Assembly: GCA_027021085.1 (NCBI GenBank)
Contig: JALUVB010000130.1
Location: forward strand, 1 to 10,261
Length of the DNA stretch: 10,261 nt
From: a bacterium
GTDB lineage: Bacteria; CAIJMQ01; JAADFP01
Reading direction: 5' to 3'
A program made the position numbers and the translations under genes. The notes beneath the pieces are model-generated. The model saw nothing but the letters and a program-made list of their open reading frames with translations, had not been told where the DNA came from and did no database searches. Within the stretch, counting starts at the first letter, position 1; the number at the start of each line of letters is the position of its first letter. Positions 1,083 to 10,261 of the stretch are shown one piece after another.

Positions 1083-1117
1083 AGATATGATAAGAAAAAC
1101 AGAAGAAGGAGGTGGCT

Positions 1118-1996
1118 ATGTTACTCATAGGAGAAAATATAAACGTGATGAATAAGAGATTAAGGGCTGCCATGAAAGAGAGGAACAGGGACCCCATTCA
1201 GGAAATTGCCAGAAAAAGCGAAGCAAACGGTATGGATTATCTCGACCTGAATATCGGGCCTGCGCGCAAGAACGGACCGGAGCTGATGGAGTGGATTATT
1301 AAAACAGTAAGGGAAGTTACCAATCTTCCCCTCTCGCTGGACACCACGAACCTGGAAGCCATGAAGGTAGGCCTGGAGATGGAAAGGGACAGGGCCATAA
1401 TAAACTCTATTTCCGTAACCGAGGAAAGAATGGATACCCTCTTACCGCTTATGAAAAAGTACAACTGCAAGTGTATTGCCCTTCTGATTGGCAGTACTGG
1501 TATGCCCAGGGACGCCACGGAGCGGGGTTCCCTGGCCTGTGAATTTCTATCCAAGGCTGACGAGGCAGGTATTCCTCACCAGAATATATACTTTGACCCA
1601 ATAGTACTTCCCGTGCCCTACCAGCAAGACCAGGTAGTAGCCACCCTGGAATTCCTGAGCATGTTCAAAGAAATGCTACCGGACTGCTGCTCCACCTGCG
1701 GGTTATCCAATGTATCCAACGGTGCCCCGGAAGAGCTACGCCCTCTTATAAACAGAACCTACCTGGCCATGTTTATGAAATATAAGATTGACTCGGCCAT
1801 CGTGGATGCATTTGATACAGAACTAATAGCCATGACTAGGGGAAGCAAAGAGAACATTGTAAGCTTACTCCACAGGATGATGGAAGGAGAAGAGATTGAT
1901 GTTAACTCTCTTAGCGAAGAAGAGAAAAACTATTATAAGACATATCAAATCCTCTCCGGCAAAGTGCTTTACTCTCACTCCTGGTTGAAAGTATGA
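1118..1996 (+). CDS. acsE: Methyltetrahydrofolate:corrinoid/iron-sulfur protein methyltransferase (AcsE/MeTr)
   Basis: This 292-residue protein belongs to the pterin-binding TIM-barrel family (dihydropteroate synthase fold). It is expected to move the methyl group from methyltetrahydrofolate to Co(I) of the corrinoid iron-sulfur protein, the last methyl-branch step before acetyl-CoA synthase. The N-terminus MLLIGENIN matches the MLIIGERIN-type start of AcsE. Family motifs follow in order: DLNIGP (43-48), LDTTN (74-78), INS (95-97), FDP (159-161), GLSNVSNG (195-202) and RPLINRTYLAM (208-218). D75, N96, D160 and N198 sit where MeTr has its pterin-binding residues. The ATG at 1118 is preferred over an in-frame GTG at 1112, because that GTG overlaps the AAGGAGGT ribosome binding site (1106-1113). 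It is about 30 residues longer than Moorella AcsE, with an extra C-terminal helical stretch ending YSHSWLKV. It is the first gene of the operon and the context (RACo, CooC) supports AcsE over a methanogen MtrH or generic methyltransferase. Confidence 0.92.
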   Translation: MLLIGENINVMNKRLRAAMKERNRDPIQEIARKSEANGMDYLDLNIGPARKNGPELMEWIIKTVREVTNLPLSLDTTNLEAMKVGLEMERDRAIINSISVTEERMDTLLPLMKKYNCKCIALLIGSTGMPRDATERGSLACEFLSKADEAGIPHQNIYFDPIVLPVPYQQDQVVATLEFLSMFKEMLPDCCSTCGLSNVSNGAPEELRPLINRTYLAMFMKYKIDSAIVDAFDTELIAMTRGSKENIVSLLHRMMEGEEIDVNSLSEEEKNYYKTYQILSGKVLYSHSWLKV

Positions 1997-1997
1997 A

Positions 1998-3941
1998 ATG
2001 AAAAAGCTAAGGGTTACATTTCTTCCTTACAAAAAGATTGTAGAGGTTTCTCCCGGTACAGATATCCTCACCGCTGCTGTACTGGGAGGCATAGGCATTA
2101 CCTCTTCCTGTGCCGGAGAAGGCGTATGCGGAAGATGCAAGGTAATCATTAAAGAAGGCAAATTTGAAACCGAGCCTTCCGGAAGAATAAGCAAAGAGGA
2201 GAAAGCAAAAGGGATTGTTTTAGCCTGCAGGACAACTATACACTCAGACCTGACAGTAGAGATACCACCTGCCTCCCGCCTGGAAAAGGCAAGTATCCTA
2301 ACGGAAGAAGCTAAAGAAAGCCGCTTGCGAGGCATGTACCTTCCGGGAGTAGAAGTCGCCGGAGAAATAGAATTACTGGAAGAAAGATTTTTCCTGCGTT
2401 CTCCTCTCTCTACAAAAATTTTCTTGAAAATACCTCCCCCCACTCTGGAAGATAATATTTCAGACCTGGAACGGGTTTACCGCGAAGTACGGAAAAAATT
2501 TGATATTCCCCTGTTACAAACCGGCTTGGCCAACGTAAGAAAACTGGGGCGAATTCTGAGAGAAAGCAACTGGGAAGTTACTGTAACCCTGGGGAAAAGG
2601 AACGGAACTACAGAGCTGGTAATGATTGAGCCGGGAGATACTTCAAGCAGAAATTTTGGTGTAGCAGTTGACATAGGCACCACTACACTCGTAGCACAAT
2701 TAGTGGACCTTAATTCCGGCGAAGTTATTTCCACCAAGGCCTCCTTTAATCCCCAGGCAACTTTTGGGGAGGATATTATTACCCGGATAATCGTGGCAGA
2801 AAAGGAAGAGGGGCTGGAAAGACTCCACCACGTAGTGGTGGATACTATAAACGAGCTTATTTTTTCTATGGCAAATACCCACCAGATAGCCCTCAATGAA
2901 ATAACCGCAGTAGTATGCGCCGGGAATACCACCATGACCCACCTGCTTCTCAGGGTGGACCCCTCCTACCTCAGGAGGGAGCCTTACGTACCCACTGCCA
3001 ACCTTATGCCGGTAATACGCGCGGCAGAAGTGGGAATAAAAGTACACCCGCGCGGTCTCCTGGGAACCCTGCCAGCACCAGCCACTTTTGTGGGAGGAGA
3101 TATAACCGCAGGAATTCTTGCCACGGGACTGGATGAGGAAAAGCAGGTAAGCTCTCTCATAGATATAGGCACAAACGGGGAGATAGTTATCGGGAATAAA
3201 GAGTGGATGGTCTGCTGTTCAGCCTCTGCCGGGCCTGCCTTTGAAGGAAGCGGGGTAAAGTGCGGAGTAAGGGCCAGAGAAGGCGCTATCCAGAAGGTAA
3301 AAATTACCGGAACAAATATAAAAGTTGAAACGATAGGTAATACCCTTCCCTTAGGGATATGCGGTTCTGGCTATGTAGATCTCGTATCCGAGCTTTTCAG
3401 AAACGGGATAATCGATAAGGCAGGCACCTTAAATCCAAACTCATTCCGGGTAAGGAAGAGCGAGGAAGGACCGGAATTCTTAGTAGTAGAAGGTAAATCC
3501 ACTGCTACGGGAGAAGATATTGTAATAACCCAACCAGATATAGAAAACCTTATCCGTTCCAAGGGAGCCATATTCACTGCTTTTATTATCCTGCTGGAAA
3601 AGATGGGACTAAACAGGGAAAAAGTCGGGAAAATCTATGTAGCAGGCGGATTCGGGAACTATCTGGATATAGAGAACGCAATTTTTATCGGCCTTCTCCC
3701 GGATTTACCCAGAGAGAAATTCCGATTTGTGGGAAATGCCTCCCTGAGAGGCGCACGGCTGGCACTTTTATCCTACCCTGCCTATATGAAGGCACGTGAA
3801 ATATCTTCTGCCATGACTTACATAGACCTTGCCACTGACCCTGCATACATGGACAGGTTCATTGCCTCGTTATTCCTGCCCCATACGGATACAAGCCTTT
3901 TCCCCAGCATAGAAAAAGAATTATCCAGGGCAAAAAGTTGA
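1998..3941 (+). CDS. acsV: RACo: reductive activator ATPase of the corrinoid iron-sulfur protein
   Basis: This 647-residue protein has the architecture of RACo. An N-terminal plant-type [2Fe-2S] ferredoxin domain (about 1-90) carries cysteines C38, C44, C47 and C77 (CAGEGVCGRC, then ACRT). A linker/middle region follows (about 95-215), then an ASKHA-type ATPase domain (about 220-647) with AVDIGTTTL (223-231), CAGNTTMTHLLL (about 308-318), FVGGDITAGI (364-373), LIDIGTNGEI (387-396), CCSASAGPAFEG (406-417) and, near the end, VAGGFGNYLDIENAIFIG. RACo uses ATP to drive reduction of accidentally oxidised Co(II) back to Co(I) on the corrinoid protein. The [2Fe-2S] centre separates it from RamA-type activators of methylamine pathways, which use [4Fe-4S] clusters. 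The ATG lies 1 nt after the acsE stop with only a weak ribosome binding site, so translation is probably coupled. The symbol acsV follows usage for acetogens. Confidence 0.93.
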   Translation: MKKLRVTFLPYKKIVEVSPGTDILTAAVLGGIGITSSCAGEGVCGRCKVIIKEGKFETEPSGRISKEEKAKGIVLACRTTIHSDLTVEIPPASRLEKASILTEEAKESRLRGMYLPGVEVAGEIELLEERFFLRSPLSTKIFLKIPPPTLEDNISDLERVYREVRKKFDIPLLQTGLANVRKLGRILRESNWEVTVTLGKRNGTTELVMIEPGDTSSRNFGVAVDIGTTTLVAQLVDLNSGEVISTKASFNPQATFGEDIITRIIVAEKEEGLERLHHVVVDTINELIFSMANTHQIALNEITAVVCAGNTTMTHLLLRVDPSYLRREPYVPTANLMPVIRAAEVGIKVHPRGLLGTLPAPATFVGGDITAGILATGLDEEKQVSSLIDIGTNGEIVIGNKEWMVCCSASAGPAFEGSGVKCGVRAREGAIQKVKITGTNIKVETIGNTLPLGICGSGYVDLVSELFRNGIIDKAGTLNPNSFRVRKSEEGPEFLVVEGKSTATGEDIVITQPDIENLIRSKGAIFTAFIILLEKMGLNREKVGKIYVAGGFGNYLDIENAIFIGLLPDLPREKFRFVGNASLRGARLALLSYPAYMKAREISSAMTYIDLATDPAYMDRFIASLFLPHTDTSLFPSIEKELSRAKS

Positions 3942-4681
3942 AGATTGGCATAGCTGGCAAAGGAGGCTCCGGGAAATCCACCCTGGCAGCGCTGATAATA
4001 GACTGCCTGCTGAAAAACGGGAAGACTCCCATCCTGGCAGTAGATGCAGACCCCAACCATTCCTTAGGAGAATACCTGGGACTGGATAAACCCAGCACCC
4101 TCATGGAGAAAATGGAAGAACTCCTGCAGCTTAAAGACAAGCTCCCTCCCGGCATGGATAAAGCACTTCTCTGGGAAATGGGCATTGCGGAAATCCTGCA
4201 GGAAAATAAGGGATTTGACTTACTTACCATGGGACGCACAGAAGGTGCGGGCTGCTACTGCACTGCCAACAACCTCCTGAGAACCTTCATGGAACGCCTG
4301 GAGAAAAATTATCCTTTTGTCGTCATGGACAATGAGGCAGGCATGGAACATCTCTCACGCAGAACTTCGCGGGAACTGGATTATCTTGCCATTGTAGCAA
4401 ATCCCTTCCCCCACTCGCTGAAAAGTGCAGAAAGAATATGGGAAATCTCCCGGGATATGGATTTAGAAATCAAGGAAAGAATTCTGATAATGGTGGAAAC
4501 CATACCGGGCGAAATAAAAGACCCGATAAAACCTTTCCGGGAGATAGCCTGCACTATTCCCTTTGACCAGGAAGTTCTCTCCCGCTCCCTGCAGAATCTT
4601 CCCCTGTTAGGAATAGATTCCTCTTCTCCCGCCCCCCGGGCAGTAGAGAAATTAGTGCTGGAACTGATAGCTAAGAACTGA
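3938..4681 (+). CDS. cooC: CooC/AcsF-type nickel-insertion ATPase for CODH/ACS maturation
   Basis: This 247-residue protein is a MinD/SIMIBI-class P-loop ATPase. It shows a deviant Walker A GKGGSGKST (7-15) with the signature lysine K8, a VDADPNHSLG segment (35-44), the CooC-specific CxC motif in GAGCYCTANN (104-112, C106 and C108), and DNEAGMEHLSRR (131-142). CooC proteins dimerise, bind nickel or zinc through the CxC cysteines and use ATP to load Ni into carbon monoxide dehydrogenase or acetyl-CoA synthase. Translation starts at a TTG (3938-3940) that overlaps the RACo TGA (3939-3941) by four bases. A CCAGGG-type ribosome binding site lies just upstream and MKIGIAGKGG is the normal family N-terminus, so the start is well supported and the gene is translationally coupled to RACo. 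Whether it serves CODH (CooC) or ACS (AcsF) cannot be told from sequence; the acs neighbours favour ACS. Confidence 0.92.
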   Translation: MKIGIAGKGGSGKSTLAALIIDCLLKNGKTPILAVDADPNHSLGEYLGLDKPSTLMEKMEELLQLKDKLPPGMDKALLWEMGIAEILQENKGFDLLTMGRTEGAGCYCTANNLLRTFMERLEKNYPFVVMDNEAGMEHLSRRTSRELDYLAIVANPFPHSLKSAERIWEISRDMDLEIKERILIMVETIPGEIKDPIKPFREIACTIPFDQEVLSRSLQNLPLLGIDSSSPAPRAVEKLVLELIAKN

Positions 4682-4779
4682 CACCGCCTGGCAGGAAGTA
4701 GCTCCACTCTAACTACTCACTACTTTCTTCCCATTCTGTATCTTTCCTTTCCCCATCTAAAGTCTACCTGCTCTACTGG

Positions 4780-4799
4780 ATGCCTCCTTTCGCAGGCAT
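4780..4799. repeat. 20-nt hairpin element with 6-8-6 geometry
   Basis: ATGCCT (4780-4785) and AGGCAT (4794-4799) are perfect inverted arms around the 8-nt loop CCTTTCGC. It is followed by a short palindrome GCATGACATGC (4796-4806). The geometry (6-nt arms, 8-nt loop, 20 nt in total) and the context TGGATGCC...CTTTCGC...GGCATGACA resemble small dispersed hairpin repeats of bacteria, such as the neisserial dRS3 family (ATTCCC, eight bases, GGGAAT). Only this copy is visible in the window. Confidence 0.5.
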
Positions 4800-4843
4800 G
4801 ACATGCGGGCTGGTTACTTGTAATTCTTGCGCAATCTATCCCC

Positions 4844-4903
4844 TTTACCATTAACTGCTTACCGTTTACTGTTCACTATCTTCCGGTCTATAGTCTAAAG
4901 TCT
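4844..4903. repeat. Degenerate heptamer tandem repeats upstream of the isomerase-RLP promoter
   Basis: From 4844 to 4878 five 7-nt units run in register: TTTACCA, TTAACTG, CTTACCG, TTTACTG, TTCACTA. After a 7-nt gap a second series follows at 4886-4903: GTCTATA, GTCTAAA, GTCT. The units differ in sequence but the 7-nt phase is kept. The array ends 16 nt before the -35 box of the next promoter. Function unknown. Confidence 0.6.
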
Positions 4904-4919
4904 CCTGATACTTGCTACA

Positions 4920-4949
4920 TTGACATTATCCCATACAAAACCTTATAAT
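4920..4949 (+). promoter_or_regulatory. Perfect-consensus sigma70-type promoter of the isomerase-RLP operon
   Basis: TTGACA (4920-4925) and TATAAT (4944-4949) match both consensus hexamers at all positions with an 18-nt spacer. Transcription would start near 4956, giving a leader of about 16 nt that holds little more than the AGGAGG ribosome binding site (4960-4965) before the ATG at 4972. The short leader leaves no room for a riboswitch or attenuator. Confidence 0.85.
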
Positions 4950-4971
4950 CTCCTTGAGCAGGAGGTAAAAG

Positions 4972-6387
4972 ATGAAAGAAAATTTAAGCATGGGATTAAT
5001 CGTAGGGAACAGGGGCTTTTTCCCGGACCATCTTTGCAAAACGGGAAGGGCAAAATTGCTTGCGATTTTAAAGGAGAAAAATGTTGATGTGGTTACTCTT
5101 TCTGAAAAAGAGAGCAAGTTTGGAAGCGTGGAGACCTGGAGAGATGCCAAGAAATGTGCTTCCCTCTTCAAAAAAAACAGAGAGAAAATTTCTGGAATAA
5201 TTGTCACCCTGCCAAATTTTGGCGATGAAAGAGGAGTCTCTGATGCCATACGTCTATCCGGCCTTGATGTTCCCATTCTAATCCACGCCTGGCCGGATGA
5301 AATAAAGAAGATGGATAGCACCCACAGAAGAGACAGCTTCTGCGGGAAAATCTCCGTCTGCAACAACCTGTTGCAATACGGGATAAAGTTTACTCTGACA
5401 GAAAAGCATACAGCTGACCCTGCTTCAGGGCAATTCTCCCGCGAAATAGACAATTTTTTAAGCATATGCCGGGTAGTCAGGGGATTAAAGAATGTGCGTC
5501 TGGGAGCAATTGGCACTAGGCCGCAGGCCTTCAAAACCGTGCGGTACAGCGAAAAAATCCTGGAAAAATTCGGAGTAGCGGTAGATGTAATAGACCTCTC
5601 GGAAATATTTGCCGGAGCGGAAAAGTTGAAAGAAGGCTCTCAGGAAGTAAAAGAACAACTGGAGAAAATAAATAATTACACCGATACCTCTGAGGTTCCT
5701 GCCACCTCCCTGCTCAAAATGGCCAAGCTCAAGGTTATAATTGAGAGGTGGATAAAAGAGAATGAACTCTCCAGTATAGCCATACAGTGCTGGACATCTA
5801 TACAACAAAACTACGGGGTAATGCCCTGTGCTGTGATGAGCTTTCTTTCCAACTCGCTTTTACCGGCTGCCTGCGAGGTTGATATCACCGGAGCACTGAG
5901 CATGTACATCCTGCAACTTGCCTCTGGCACACCCAGTGCCATCGTGGACTGGAACAACAATTACGGAAATGAAGAAGATAAGACTGTCCTGTTCCACTGC
6001 AGTAATCTACCTGCTCACTTCTTCCACAAATCTCGCATGTATATCTCGGAAATCATTGCCAACGATATAGGGAAAGAAAACGCGTATGGAACAATTTACG
6101 GAAAAATCAAACCATCACCATTCACTTTTTTGCGCTTAACCACGGATGACTTTTCCGGCAAAATCAAGGGATACATCGGAGAAGGCCGCTTGACCGATGA
6201 TAAACTGGAAACATTTGGTGGCTATGGAATAGCCGAAATTGAAGATTTGCAGAACCTGATGAAATTCATATGTGAAAATGGCTTTGAACATCATACGGTG
6301 ATAAATCTCTCCCGCACTTCCGGAATTGTAAAAGAAGCCCTGGAGAAATACAAGGGCTGGGACATTTACCAGCATTCCGCTGCTTAA
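4972..6387 (+). CDS. L-fucose/L-arabinose isomerase-like protein (COG2407-type), substrate unknown
   Basis: This 471-residue protein resembles the FucI/AraA superfamily of metal-dependent aldose-ketose isomerases. The N-terminal two thirds look like two Rossmann-type domains (GLIVGNRGFF at 8-17, SGIIVTLPNFGDER at 74-87, VRLGAIGTRP at 175-184). The signature region is AIQCWTSIQ (270-278), APC-type YGVMPCAVMS (281-290), CEVDITGA (301-308) with putative metal ligand E302, IVDWNNNYGNEED (324-336) with putative ligand D326, and LFHCSNLPAHFF (340-351). A histidine pair at 440-441 may supply the third ligand. Such enzymes interconvert an aldose and its ketose through an enediol, with Mn(2+) or similar. 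The start has an excellent AGGAGG (4960-4965) and its own consensus promoter. It is 22 nt upstream of an RLP gene in the same operon, so its product probably feeds that enzyme. It is not close enough to true FucI or AraA for me to name a substrate. Confidence 0.85.
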   Translation: MKENLSMGLIVGNRGFFPDHLCKTGRAKLLAILKEKNVDVVTLSEKESKFGSVETWRDAKKCASLFKKNREKISGIIVTLPNFGDERGVSDAIRLSGLDVPILIHAWPDEIKKMDSTHRRDSFCGKISVCNNLLQYGIKFTLTEKHTADPASGQFSREIDNFLSICRVVRGLKNVRLGAIGTRPQAFKTVRYSEKILEKFGVAVDVIDLSEIFAGAEKLKEGSQEVKEQLEKINNYTDTSEVPATSLLKMAKLKVIIERWIKENELSSIAIQCWTSIQQNYGVMPCAVMSFLSNSLLPAACEVDITGALSMYILQLASGTPSAIVDWNNNYGNEEDKTVLFHCSNLPAHFFHKSRMYISEIIANDIGKENAYGTIYGKIKPSPFTFLRLTTDDFSGKIKGYIGEGRLTDDKLETFGGYGIAEIEDLQNLMKFICENGFEHHTVINLSRTSGIVKEALEKYKGWDIYQHSAA

Positions 6388-6409
6388 ACTCTTCGTATAA
6401 GGAGGCAAT

Positions 6410-7843
6410 ATGGGTAAAAATTTTACGGATTTTCTCATTAACCTGGATGAAAGAGAAAGTATTATACGCAAGGAAGTAAAATCCCGGCTGAACCAGTTTC
6501 CCCCGGCAGATACCTCCGAATCAATAGTAGCCACCTACTTTATTCACACCATGCCTTTCACCAGCATAGAAGAATCGGGCCGGGAAATAGCCCGCCTGCA
6601 AACCAGCGGGGAGAAATATACAGGAGAGAATACTATCCTGCAACAGAGCACAGGCCACCTGATGGATGCAATCGCCTTTGACAAGCAGGGAACATGCGGG
6701 TTAGTGAGAATTGCCTTTCCGCTGATAAATATCTGGGATACCCGGCATGATACCATATATTCCTCCGAGATTTTACATATTGTGGCTGGTGCCGTGCAAT
6801 TTGATTTCCCTAAGAATATTGATATTAAACTGGTGGATATAGCCATGTCTGAAGAGGTTATCTCAGCCTTTCCAGGCCCTGCCTTCGGCCCCCAGGGGCT
6901 GAGAGAATTATCCGGATACGGCGAGGGAATTGCCTTTGGGACCATCGGCAAGCCCAAAACCGGTCTCACTGCCCGGGAATATGCCCGGGTAATTGCCGAG
7001 GCAGCCAGGAACCCTCTCTTTCTTTTCGTCAAGGACGACGAAAACTATGGTGTATGGTACAAATACTGTCCTTTAAACGAGCGGGTAAAAGCAGTAATGC
7101 AGGCAGTTAAAGAAGCAGCAAAGGAAAGAGGAAAAGGGGAAATAATCTATGCTCCCCACATAGGCAACTGTGTCCAGAACCTGAGAGAAAATATCGATAT
7201 TGCTCTGGATAACGGTGCCACAGCCATAATGTTCAGCGAAATACACGGAAGAGGAGGAGTACGCATGGCACGGGAGCATATGGCTAAAACAGGCAGGCAG
7301 GTGCCTATATACGGCCACAACGGTGGAATAACTCCCCTAACCCGGGCAATTTTCCGGGAAATCCTGGACATGTTTGCCCGGCTGGACGGGATTGACCTGA
7401 GGCAAACAGGCCCCGTGGGGACTCACACACTCCCGCTACTCCGGCCATACGGAGAGGAATGGGAGGCATGTGAGGAGATACTTACAAAACCATTAGGCCA
7501 GCATAAACCGGTTATGATAGCCAGGGCAGGAGGTCTTGACCAGGGTAACATCATATTAAATCTTGCTGATATAAAAGAGAGAGGCTATGACCCGAATAAT
7601 TTCATCATGCTTTCCGGGTCAGCAATAAACGAATGGCGTAATGAATCCGGGGAATACGACCCCTGTGGCGGTGCAATTGCCATGCAGCAGGCGATACAAG
7701 CCTACGAGAAAGATAGATTTGAAGCACTACCGGCCGAAACTCATGTGAAACGGCTATACGAGCATGCCCAGAAACACGGTTACCGGGAGCTGGCCTCCGC
7801 CCTCAGACAACGTTACCCTGATAAGTTTCCTGCCATCCGCTGA
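6410..7843 (+). CDS. RuBisCO-like protein (form IV-type RLP), probable non-carboxylating enzyme
   Basis: This 477-residue protein aligns along its length with the RuBisCO large subunit. The N-terminal domain has SIVATYFI (38-45); the barrel has PGPAFGPQGLREL (155-167), GTIGKPKTGL (177-186), FVKDDEN (206-212), IYGHNGG (300-306) and ARAGGLDQGN (371-380). By eye, K181/K183 correspond to spinach K175/K177, and K208, D210, E211 to the carbamylated K201 and Mg ligands D203/E204; H303 corresponds to H294. In contrast N123 appears as A128, R295 as N304, S379 as A373, and no lysine occupies the loop-6 K334 position (GPVGTHTLPLLRPYG). This pattern indicates enediolate chemistry without CO2 fixation, as in RLPs that act as enolases, isomerases or transcarboxylases. 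The start has AAGGAGG (6399-6405). It probably acts after the co-transcribed isomerase. The RLP subtype and substrate are not determined. Confidence 0.9.
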   Translation: MGKNFTDFLINLDERESIIRKEVKSRLNQFPPADTSESIVATYFIHTMPFTSIEESGREIARLQTSGEKYTGENTILQQSTGHLMDAIAFDKQGTCGLVRIAFPLINIWDTRHDTIYSSEILHIVAGAVQFDFPKNIDIKLVDIAMSEEVISAFPGPAFGPQGLRELSGYGEGIAFGTIGKPKTGLTAREYARVIAEAARNPLFLFVKDDENYGVWYKYCPLNERVKAVMQAVKEAAKERGKGEIIYAPHIGNCVQNLRENIDIALDNGATAIMFSEIHGRGGVRMAREHMAKTGRQVPIYGHNGGITPLTRAIFREILDMFARLDGIDLRQTGPVGTHTLPLLRPYGEEWEACEEILTKPLGQHKPVMIARAGGLDQGNIILNLADIKERGYDPNNFIMLSGSAINEWRNESGEYDPCGGAIAMQQAIQAYEKDRFEALPAETHVKRLYEHAQKHGYRELASALRQRYPDKFPAIR

Positions 7844-7940
7844 CTACCTGGTAATTGACCGAAGTTGCGCAGAGATAATCTTTATGTGTAATACTAACTT
7901 GATGTCAAAGATATAGTTTTCATTTAACCAAACTGACTAA

Positions 7941-8016
7941 TAACGCCATGTGCAACTTTTAAGGTTAACTGTCCGGGATACCCTGCCCGTTCTCCCGACG
8001 GATGTGGGGGGAAAGC
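7941..8016 (+). repeat. Intergenic repeat, copy A
   Basis: The core 7941-7964 (starting TAACGCCATGTGCAAC and ending TTTTAAGG) matches 21 of 24 bases of copy B at 8760-8783 in the same orientation, and its inner 16 bases recur inverted at 10171-10186. After the core both A and B run on for about 52 nt of weaker similarity (TAACTRTCC, TGCCYGTT) into a GC-rich hairpin; here TTCTCCC (7990-7996) pairs with GGGGGAA (8007-8013). No coding potential. Confidence 0.65.
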
Positions 8017-8030
8017 AGGAATCCATAACC

Positions 8031-8051
8031 CTATCTACCCGCTACTCACTA
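8031..8051. repeat. Three-unit heptamer array
   Basis: CTATCTA, CCCGCTA and CTCACTA stand head to tail, with a decayed fourth unit CTAAATA. These are the same YTMRCTA-like units that occur at 4709-4722 and 10121-10162. Confidence 0.55.
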
Positions 8052-8088
8052 CTAAATAAAAAAATTTCGCAGATGGTGTTATTACTCA

Positions 8089-8742
8089 CTATACTGGGCA
8101 CATTATCGCTTTTTCAATCTCTTCCCGGGAAAATACAGGCAGGATGGCATCCGCCTTCCCCAGAAAGGAGGCAGGAAGTGTATGAGTAACAGCAAAACAT
8201 ACAGCGCCTGCCTTCTTTGCTGCTTCTATCCCCACCACAGAGTCTTCTATTACCACACACTCTGCAGGATTAACCCCCAGCTCCCGGGCAGCAAGAAGGT
8301 ATATCTCAGGAGAAGGCTTTGGCTGCCTGACATTCTCCTTGGTGATAATTTTCTCAAAGTATCCCCTCAGGGAAAATTCTTCCACAATCTTCAGGATAAA
8401 TTCCCGGCGTGAATTCGAAGCCAGAGCCAGGGTATATTCCCGGGCAAGAGTGTGCAGAGTTTCTCTCACCCCCGGGAAAAGCTTCACTTCCTGGCTAAGG
8501 CTCATGAGAATATTAAATTTCTCTTTTAGTATTTCCTCTATGCTATACCGCACAGGTATTTTCCCTCTCTCCACCAGGATTTCCAGAAACTCCCTATCCG
8601 CATTACCTATCCCCACTTCGTAGTCCCGGGGGGATAGCTCTATTCCTATTTTTTCAAAAACCTGTTCCCAGGCTCTTACGTGCACCTTCTCGGAATCAAA
8701 TAGTACACCGTCTCCATCACATATTATTGCCCGAATATTCAT
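8089..8742 (-). CDS. HAD-superfamily phosphatase / beta-phosphoglucomutase-like hydrolase
   Basis: This 217-residue protein has all four haloacid dehalogenase motifs. Motif I is CDGDGVLFDSE (8-18) with nucleophile D9 and acid/base D11; motif II is ALASNS (106-111) with S109; motif III is lysine K142 in RQPKPSPEIY; motif IV is VIEDSVVGIEAA (164-175) with E166/D167. Residues about 17-85 form the helical cap typical of subfamily I (beta-phosphoglucomutase, phosphoglycolate phosphatase, sugar phosphatases). It removes or shifts phosphate on a small phosphorylated metabolite; the specific substrate cannot be read from sequence. The start is supported by AGGAGAT about 5 nt upstream. It faces the isomerase-RLP operon and is bracketed by two copies of an intergenic repeat. 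A possible -10 TATAAT on the minus strand lies at 8912-8907, about 165 nt upstream, without a good -35. Confidence 0.9.
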   Translation of the reverse strand: MNIRAIICDGDGVLFDSEKVHVRAWEQVFEKIGIELSPRDYEVGIGNADREFLEILVERGKIPVRYSIEEILKEKFNILMSLSQEVKLFPGVRETLHTLAREYTLALASNSRREFILKIVEEFSLRGYFEKIITKENVRQPKPSPEIYLLAARELGVNPAECVVIEDSVVGIEAAKKAGAVCFAVTHTLPASFLGKADAILPVFSREEIEKAIMCPV

Positions 8743-9010
8743 TCTTATCTCCTAAGCATTAACGCTATCTGCGACTTTTAAGGGATAACTATCCTGACTT
8801 GCCTGTTCCCAACCCCGATTTAACCGGGGGGAGGGCATATTTTCTCAAAATCCTGGGAGAAACCAGCGTAGCTGTTTTAGCCTTTACAGATTAATGCACT
8901 CTTATTATTATATACATTTTCTCTCGCGAAAGGGACGAACTGCTGCCTTTGCAAATGAAAGAATACATCCGCCCTGCCCCCCTAAAGAATTTTGCTATTT
9001 ACCCAGGTAA
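8743..9010. other. Non-coding spacer between HAD and rubrerythrin genes
   Basis: It contains the HAD ribosome binding site, repeat copy B (8760-8836) and otherwise unremarkable sequence. No clear intrinsic terminator for the rubrerythrin gene was found downstream of its stop. Confidence 0.55.
8760..8836 (+). repeat. Intergenic repeat, copy B
   Basis: This is the direct copy of the repeat at 7941-8016. The core 8760-8783 differs from copy A at three positions (7, 10 and 14). The hairpin part here is CCCCG (8813-8817) pairing with CGGGG (8825-8829) around a 7-nt loop, with a possible outer extension CCC (8808-8810) to GGG (8833-8835). The sequence of the hairpin differs from copy A although its place in the repeat is the same, which suggests that structure matters more than sequence. 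Confidence 0.65.
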
Positions 9011-9595: not shown

Positions 9596-9636
9596 ATCTC
9601 CTCCTTTCAATTATTTAACCATAACCTTACTTTCTT

Positions 9637-9665
9637 ATTCTATCATTCTCTTACTAATCAGGCAA
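9637..9665 (-). promoter_or_regulatory. rbr: Likely promoter of the rubrerythrin gene
   Basis: On the minus strand TTGCCT (9665-9660), a 17-nt spacer and TAGAAT (9642-9637) form a fair sigma70-type promoter (4/6 and 5/6). The start of transcription would be about 35 nt before the ATG. No obvious PerR- or Fur-like palindrome overlaps it. Confidence 0.5.
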
Positions 9666-10048
9666 ATAACTCCGGGGGTAATAAAGTCCTCGGATCACCC
9701 CACTGTGTTACTATCCAACCTTCACTTGCCTTGCCGAGGTATACCGGGAAGAGGCAGGGAGGGGTAAATGTCTCCCAGGAAACGAGAGAGGATCTCTGCC
9801 CTGCTGCAAGGCAATTTCTTGCCTGTTATTTCCCTGCTCCTGGCACCTGCTACCCCATCTCTCACTAACACCGGGGATAATATTATCCTTTTATGCTATC
9901 TATGCCAATCCGCTTTTCTCTTTTATCACTTTTTTTACATCTGGAAAGATAATCAATATACTCGTTCCATATATTACGTCCCTGGGTTATACTGCGCACA
10001 TACGGGACAAGACATAATGCCTGCTGTGCCCCCGCCTGTATCTTGGAA

Positions 10049-10118
10049 GAGTTGTGAGTTGCTCCCGATGAACATCGGGACCAGTTCTGCCTATCACCTC
10101 ACACCTATCTCATATCCT
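10049..10118. repeat. Hairpin flanked by oppositely oriented heptamer repeats
   Basis: GAGTTGT and GAGTTGC (10049-10062) stand left of a perfect hairpin, TCCCGAT (10063-10069), loop GAAC, ATCGGGA (10074-10080). To the right, after 10 nt, come CTATCAC, CTCACAC, CTATCTC and ATATCCT (10091-10118). The left heptamers read as CAACTC-type units on the other strand and so resemble the right-hand ones in inverted orientation, giving the element a roughly mirror-symmetric plan. Confidence 0.55.
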
Positions 10119-10120
10119 CC

Positions 10121-10162
10121 CTAACTACTCGCTACTCGCTACCCGCTACTAATTATTCGCCA
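10121..10162. repeat. Six-unit heptamer array
   Basis: Six 7-nt units follow one another without a gap: CTAACTA, CTCGCTA, CTCGCTA, CCCGCTA, CTAATTA, TTCGCCA. This is the clearest of the heptamer arrays in the window; units two and three are identical and the others differ at one to four positions. Confidence 0.75.
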
Positions 10163-10170
10163 TTCAAAAG

Positions 10171-10186
10171 AAAAGTTGCACATGGC
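10171..10186 (-). repeat. Inverted copy of the 16-nt intergenic repeat core (copy C)
   Basis: The minus strand reads GCCATGTGCAACTTTT, identical over 16 bases to 7945-7960 in copy A. Similarity is not seen beyond the core on the downstream side, so this is either a partial copy or a decayed one. Confidence 0.55.
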
Positions 10187-10261
10187 ATTAGTAGTTACCC
10201 AAATAAATTATTATTTTACTCCACAGCTTAAAATATTTGAAGAAAATATTAGCCGTCTGTC

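Follow-up and report, generated by a model that had tools for sequence, protein, structure and literature searches.

A two-gene operon of an AraA/FucI-like isomerase and a RuBisCO-like protein from an apparently undescribed clade, with a possible role in sugar catabolism

MtnW, the 2,3-diketo-5-methylthiopentyl-1-phosphate enolase, is a form-IV RuBisCO-like protein (RLP), and the OiaX/OiaT-type acid-sugar RLPs belong to D-apiose catabolism; a review (PMC6302742) covers both functions and that of the R. rubrum RLP. The RLP described here shares with MtnW the RuBisCO fold family, the KDDE motif and the loss of R295 and H327, but it is found in a different supported clade, has also lost S379 and has no methionine-salvage neighbours. 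With the OiaX/OiaT-type proteins it shares a likely place in carbohydrate catabolism. However, the plasmid RLPs of that type that were examined have a four-carbon acid sugar kinase as neighbour, while members of our clade are found beside GatZ-like, GH38, Gfo/Idh or isomerase genes instead. To our knowledge, no described RLP has gene partners like these.

The isomerase encoded next to this RLP resembles AraA and FucI, with which it has in common the C-terminal FucI domain, an E-D-H-H pattern and spacings near those of AraA, where the ligands are E306, E333, H350 and H450. It differs from AraA in that PF02610, the classical AraA domain, has no match in it, and it forms its own family of relatives with 42-63% identity. 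The sole NCBIfam match is the sulfoquinovose isomerase model SftI (NF048012), which it hits with 98 bits (cut-off 700). Another FucI-like isomerase in the same genome (L030, contig C251) is nearer to this model, with 176 bits against the same cut-off, and is flanked by a class II aldolase on one side and, judged by eye, a glycosidase family 4-looking gene on the other. The last comparison is with GatZ/KbaZ, the tagatose-1,6-bisphosphate aldolase subunit. The RLP-linked GatZ-like proteins have its domain (PF08013), but they reach only 59 bits against the AgaZ/GatZ equivalog cut-off of 569, and no GatY was seen adjoining them.

The window, i.e. the whole stretch of DNA that was analysed, is one complete 10.3-kb contig from a genome of 1.93 Mb that is 94% complete and divided into 307 contigs. 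The relevant features are:

4920..4949, + strand, sigma-70-type promoter TTGACA-18-TATAAT, 12/12 consensus matches
4960..4965, + strand, ribosome-binding site AGGAGG of the isomerase gene (from sequence)
4972..6387, + strand, AraA/FucI-superfamily aldose isomerase, 471 aa (Pfam Fucose_iso_C, alignment, tree)
6400..6405, + strand, ribosome-binding site AGGAGG of the RLP gene (from sequence)
6410..7843, + strand, RLP, 477 aa, belonging to a clade with no known function (Pfam, NCBIfam, alignment, tree)
8089..8742, - strand, HAD hydrolase, beta-phosphoglucomutase-like, convergent; it bounds the operon and is not claimed as a pathway member

The original prediction placed an isomerase and an RLP behind their own strong promoter, and the open reading frames, the gap of 22 nt between them and the TTGACA-N18-TATAAT promoter were all confirmed. 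By chance 5.4 weaker promoter matches are expected in the region, and the perfect one is found only at 4920-4949. The upstream gene ends at 4681, 290 nt before the isomerase, and together with the convergent gene downstream this makes a two-gene unit the natural reading. Both genes are also present in the congeneric genome G005 (JAADFP01, locus L006) with an identical 22-nt gap, although the isomerase gene is cut there by the contig end, and the HAD gene adjoins the RLP there as well. Between the two genomes dN/dS is about 0.06 for the isomerase and about 0.04 for the RLP, at a dS of 0.65-0.78. Such strong purifying selection indicates that both genes are functional and not chance reading frames.

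The surroundings of the operon show some further features. Positions 1112-4681 of the window encode a methyltetrahydrofolate methyltransferase-like protein, an AcsV-like corrinoid activator and a CooC/MinD-type ATPase, a trio that resembles corrinoid/acetyl-CoA pathway clusters, and the same genome carries sugar-degradation genes. The intergenic regions 4682-4971, 7844-8088, 8743-9010 and 9611-10261 contain short imperfect repeats (~20-70 bases) common to other contigs of the genome. In L006, a uroporphyrinogen-decarboxylase-like gene (3719-4834, by eye) lies between the HAD and rubrerythrin genes and is absent at this place in the window.

The family assignments of the original prediction hold for both genes, with 92 bits for Pfam Fucose_iso_C (cut-off 29) and 59 bits for RuBisCO_large (cut-off 30). 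In the isomerase, the candidate metal ligands E302, D326, H342 and H441 are invariant in 16 aligned relatives, which also keep the H440-H441 pair. Single-sequence and profile searches of the PDB with the isomerase gave no match.

Against the NCBIfam equivalogs the RLP is far under every cut-off: 61.3 bits (cut-off 409) and 37.1 bits (513.6) for the two MtnW models, 68.1 bits (700) for OiaX and 97 bits (497) for type III RuBisCO. Residues were assigned from an alignment with 42 relatives, using the usual RuBisCO numbering and ligand roles. The protein keeps K181, K208, D210, E211 and H303 (K175, K201, D203, E204 and H294 in RuBisCO), so the carbamate lysine, the Mg ligands and the K175 equivalent are all in place. 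In contrast, the phosphate-binding residues are replaced, R295 by N304, H327 by Q332, S379 by A373 and T65-W66 by E-K. An RLP that does match the MtnW models (L059) has also lost R295 and H327, but S379 is kept. With the metal/carbamate residues kept and the distal-phosphate residues lost, enolisation is plausible and a RuBP-like bisphosphate substrate is not. An AlphaFold model of the RLP built from 3 sequences had a pLDDT of 36 and was set aside.

In a tree of 55 rows the window RLP is one of 18 that form a clade with support 100/97, and true RuBisCOs, MtnW-like RLPs and acid-sugar RLPs are all outside this clade. Together with the low equivalog scores, this agrees with the earlier proposal of an undescribed pathway, as the RLP lies outside every clade of solved function that could be tested. 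One group within the clade contains the window genus together with an Aerophobetes genome (G007), whose RLP is 73% identical, and the f217 family, represented by five genomes with 41-44% identity. A second group is G148 with G383, and a third contains G017, G070, G407, G408, G285, G394, G396 and G398. Several branches are long, and the inner joins are therefore less certain than the distinctness of the clade. A single-sequence search of genome contigs gave two loci, plasmids gave only distant RLPs and phages none. We found no description of this clade, which we name the GatZ/GH38-associated RLP clade, in the literature, where most subscription journals lay outside the search, and no paper on an RLP with tagatose in the open-access literature. 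The clade is apparently undescribed and spread over several uncultured phyla.

Other RLPs were noticed in the course of the analysis. The window genome has a second one (contig C107, L031 10947-12281), which belongs to another clade, nearer the MtnW models. Among its relatives (L028, L029, L033, L169-L171, L174) an FGGY or rhamnulokinase-like kinase, an RpiR-type regulator, a TIM-barrel protein and 2-oxo-acid dehydrogenase-like E1/E2 genes recur; possibly this is a second undescribed RLP pathway. In the Aerophobetes phylum there are also short (385-aa), deep-branching RLPs (L036, L037, L038), which adjoin TIM-barrel, Gfo/Idh-like and alcohol dehydrogenase genes.

A conserved pairing of RLP and isomerase, which the original prediction set as its own test, was not borne out by the neighbourhood survey, as a FucI/AraA-like isomerase beside a clade RLP is found in the window genus only. 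In the other genomes the RLP is accompanied by GatZ-like, GH38 or Gfo/Idh genes. A GatZ/KbaZ-like gene adjoins the RLP in all three subclades, in 3 of the 18 clade rows: 13 nt after the RLP in L007, before it in L080, and before it with an 8-nt overlap in L127. No such gene lies near RLPs outside the clade in the available flanks, and none was found in the G070, G017 or f217 genomes. A GH38 alpha-mannosidase gene adjoins the RLP in G007, G070 and G407, and in G007 the RLP is located between it and the GatZ/KbaZ-like aldolase subunit. In the five f217 genomes, from a different phylum, the RLP gene overlaps a Gfo/Idh oxidoreductase gene, which in three of them is followed by a xylose-isomerase-like TIM barrel.

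The window genome does have a GatZ-like gene, 64% identical to that of L007, but unlike the tendency in the clade it is not adjacent to the RLP. It is found on contig C162 directly before uvrA, and in the Aerophobetes genome the RLP-GatZ pair is one gene away from uvrA (uvrA by eye). The two gene orders suggest that RLP, GatZ and uvrA lay together in an ancestor and that the RLP may since have been relocated.

As the adjacency is confined to one genus it says little about a functional link, and we compared the occurrence of the two genes across genomes. The sample was 290 genomes, or 288 with the own genus left out, and isomerases of at least 42% identity were counted. The isomerase is present in every genome that carries a clade RLP (4/4), compared with 14/288 overall (hypergeometric p 3.6e-6); as the thresholds were chosen after the hits had been seen, this and the following p-values are indicative only. 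Adding a partial RLP from G051, clade-like by eye, gives 4/5 (p 1.7e-5). The genomes in which both genes co-occur are few and also not independent, G148 and G285 being from one phylum, and with one genome per phylum the count is 3/4 (p 2.9e-4). For other RLP/RuBisCO clades it is 3/25 (p 0.11). A counter-example from outside the sample is G007, with a 73% identical RLP and no isomerase closer than 31%. Outside the genus, the isomerase has its nearest tree partner in G285 (support 99/97), where a GatZ-RLP pair is present as well. From these genome comparisons, a functional link through co-occurrence, independent of adjacency, is likelier than not.

The window genome also contains other sugar genes. 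Contig C30 carries araB (682 bits, cut-off 428, passing both ribulokinase models) with an araD-like gene, contig C20 a set of L-fucose isomerase-like, rhamnulokinase-like and aldolase-dehydrogenase genes, and contig C119 a xylulokinase. A FucI-like gene outside the window (L160) reaches 150 bits against a cut-off of 775. No classical AraA was found in this genome. With araB-araD elsewhere and no classical AraA, the window isomerase is the best candidate for an arabinose isomerase, and its plainest role would be that of an L-arabinose isomerase. The earlier suggestion of a kinase encoded elsewhere agrees with the araB-araD genes on C30, and a sugar role is likely. Relatives of the isomerase adjoin FGGY kinases in G070, G028, G302, G248 and G078 (the G248 kinase by eye). 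In G028, where PF02610 was not found, a 54% identical isomerase forms an operon isomerase-araB-araD with an arabinofuranosidase nearby. This suggests that in some lineages the AraA/FucI-like family takes the place of classical AraA; no paper on AraA/FucI replacement was found in the open-access literature.

Our preferred reading, which we put forward tentatively and short of calling it probable, is a two-gene sugar-catabolic operon whose RLP probably has a ketose phosphate as substrate and precedes a GatZ-type aldolase. The genes and the geometry of their operon are observed directly, as are the selection on them, the residues, the clade, the neighbours and the co-occurrence, and from these we infer the substrates, the order of the steps and that both enzymes belong to one pathway. 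The isomerase would perform a metal-dependent aldose-ketose step by 1,2-enediol chemistry, here most likely on L-arabinose or a close relative, with the AraB kinase and AraD epimerase supplied from the other contig. The form-IV RLP, which keeps the carbamate lysine and metal ligands, could plausibly enolise a ketose, but the RuBisCO distal-phosphate site is lost. Its reaction would most likely be a proton transfer through a 2,3-enediol (isomerisation, epimerisation or tautomerisation), with a ketose phosphate as the substrate. Its product would then be cleaved by the GatZ/KbaZ-like aldolase subunit. A route for the clade as a whole, in which an AraA-like isomerase makes the ketose, the RLP shifts the carbonyl or epimerises, a stand-alone GatZ-like aldolase cleaves and a GH38 mannosidase feeds the pathway in some genomes, is on balance rather unlikely in this full form.

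The strongest competitor, which we consider a real possibility while leaning against it, is that a non-classical L-arabinose isomerase completes an ordinary AraB-AraD route and that the RLP, functionally unrelated to it, entered the operon in this genus as a mere neighbour. The relatives beside FGGY kinases, and not beside RLPs, allow such an ordinary role. The araB-araD genes without classical AraA, the G028 operon and the restriction of the RLP adjacency to one genus agree with it. However, the closest outside isomerase is from G285, a genome with both clade RLP and GatZ, the isomerase and clade RLPs co-occur in unrelated genomes, and araB was not found in the congeneric G005 (86% complete).

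Apiose catabolism, MTA salvage and CO2 fixation were rejected on model scores, clade, neighbours and residues. It is improbable that the RLP is an acid-sugar enzyme of the 3-oxo-isoapionate-4-phosphate decarboxylase/transcarboxylase type, fed by the isomerase with a branched or acid sugar. There is some similarity to the OiaX model, and a Gfo/Idh oxidoreductase is found upstream of an annotated oiaX as it is beside the f217 RLPs, but 68 bits is far from 700 and the clade is different. Moreover, a four-carbon acid sugar kinase (DUF1537), present beside 4/4 acid-sugar plasmid RLPs examined, is absent from the window and was not seen beside other clade members. Even less probable is a role in 5-methylthioadenosine or 5'-deoxyadenosine salvage, as for MtnW or the R. 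rubrum RLP. In each of these two known functions an RLP acts on a phosphorylated keto sugar or diketone (PMC6302742), but the MtnW scores are 37-61 bits against 409-514, no MtnA, MtnB, MtnC or cupin genes are neighbours, and the other RLP of the genome (C107) is nearer the MtnW models, though also under the cut-offs. A true CO2-fixing RuBisCO has a negligible probability: the KDDE carbamate/metal motif and the K175 equivalent are conserved, but the R295, H327, S379, T65 and W66 positions are changed and the type III score is 97 against 497.

Few RLP functions are known, and each has shown the RuBisCO active site in a new role. The kept metal/carbamate centre, the lost distal-phosphate site and gene partners not known to us from described RLPs make this clade a defined candidate for another RLP function. 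It also suggests that the divergent GatZ-like proteins may be catalytic. If the route proposed for the clade is true, its RLPs would carry out a new chemistry and GatZ-like proteins would have a catalytic role.
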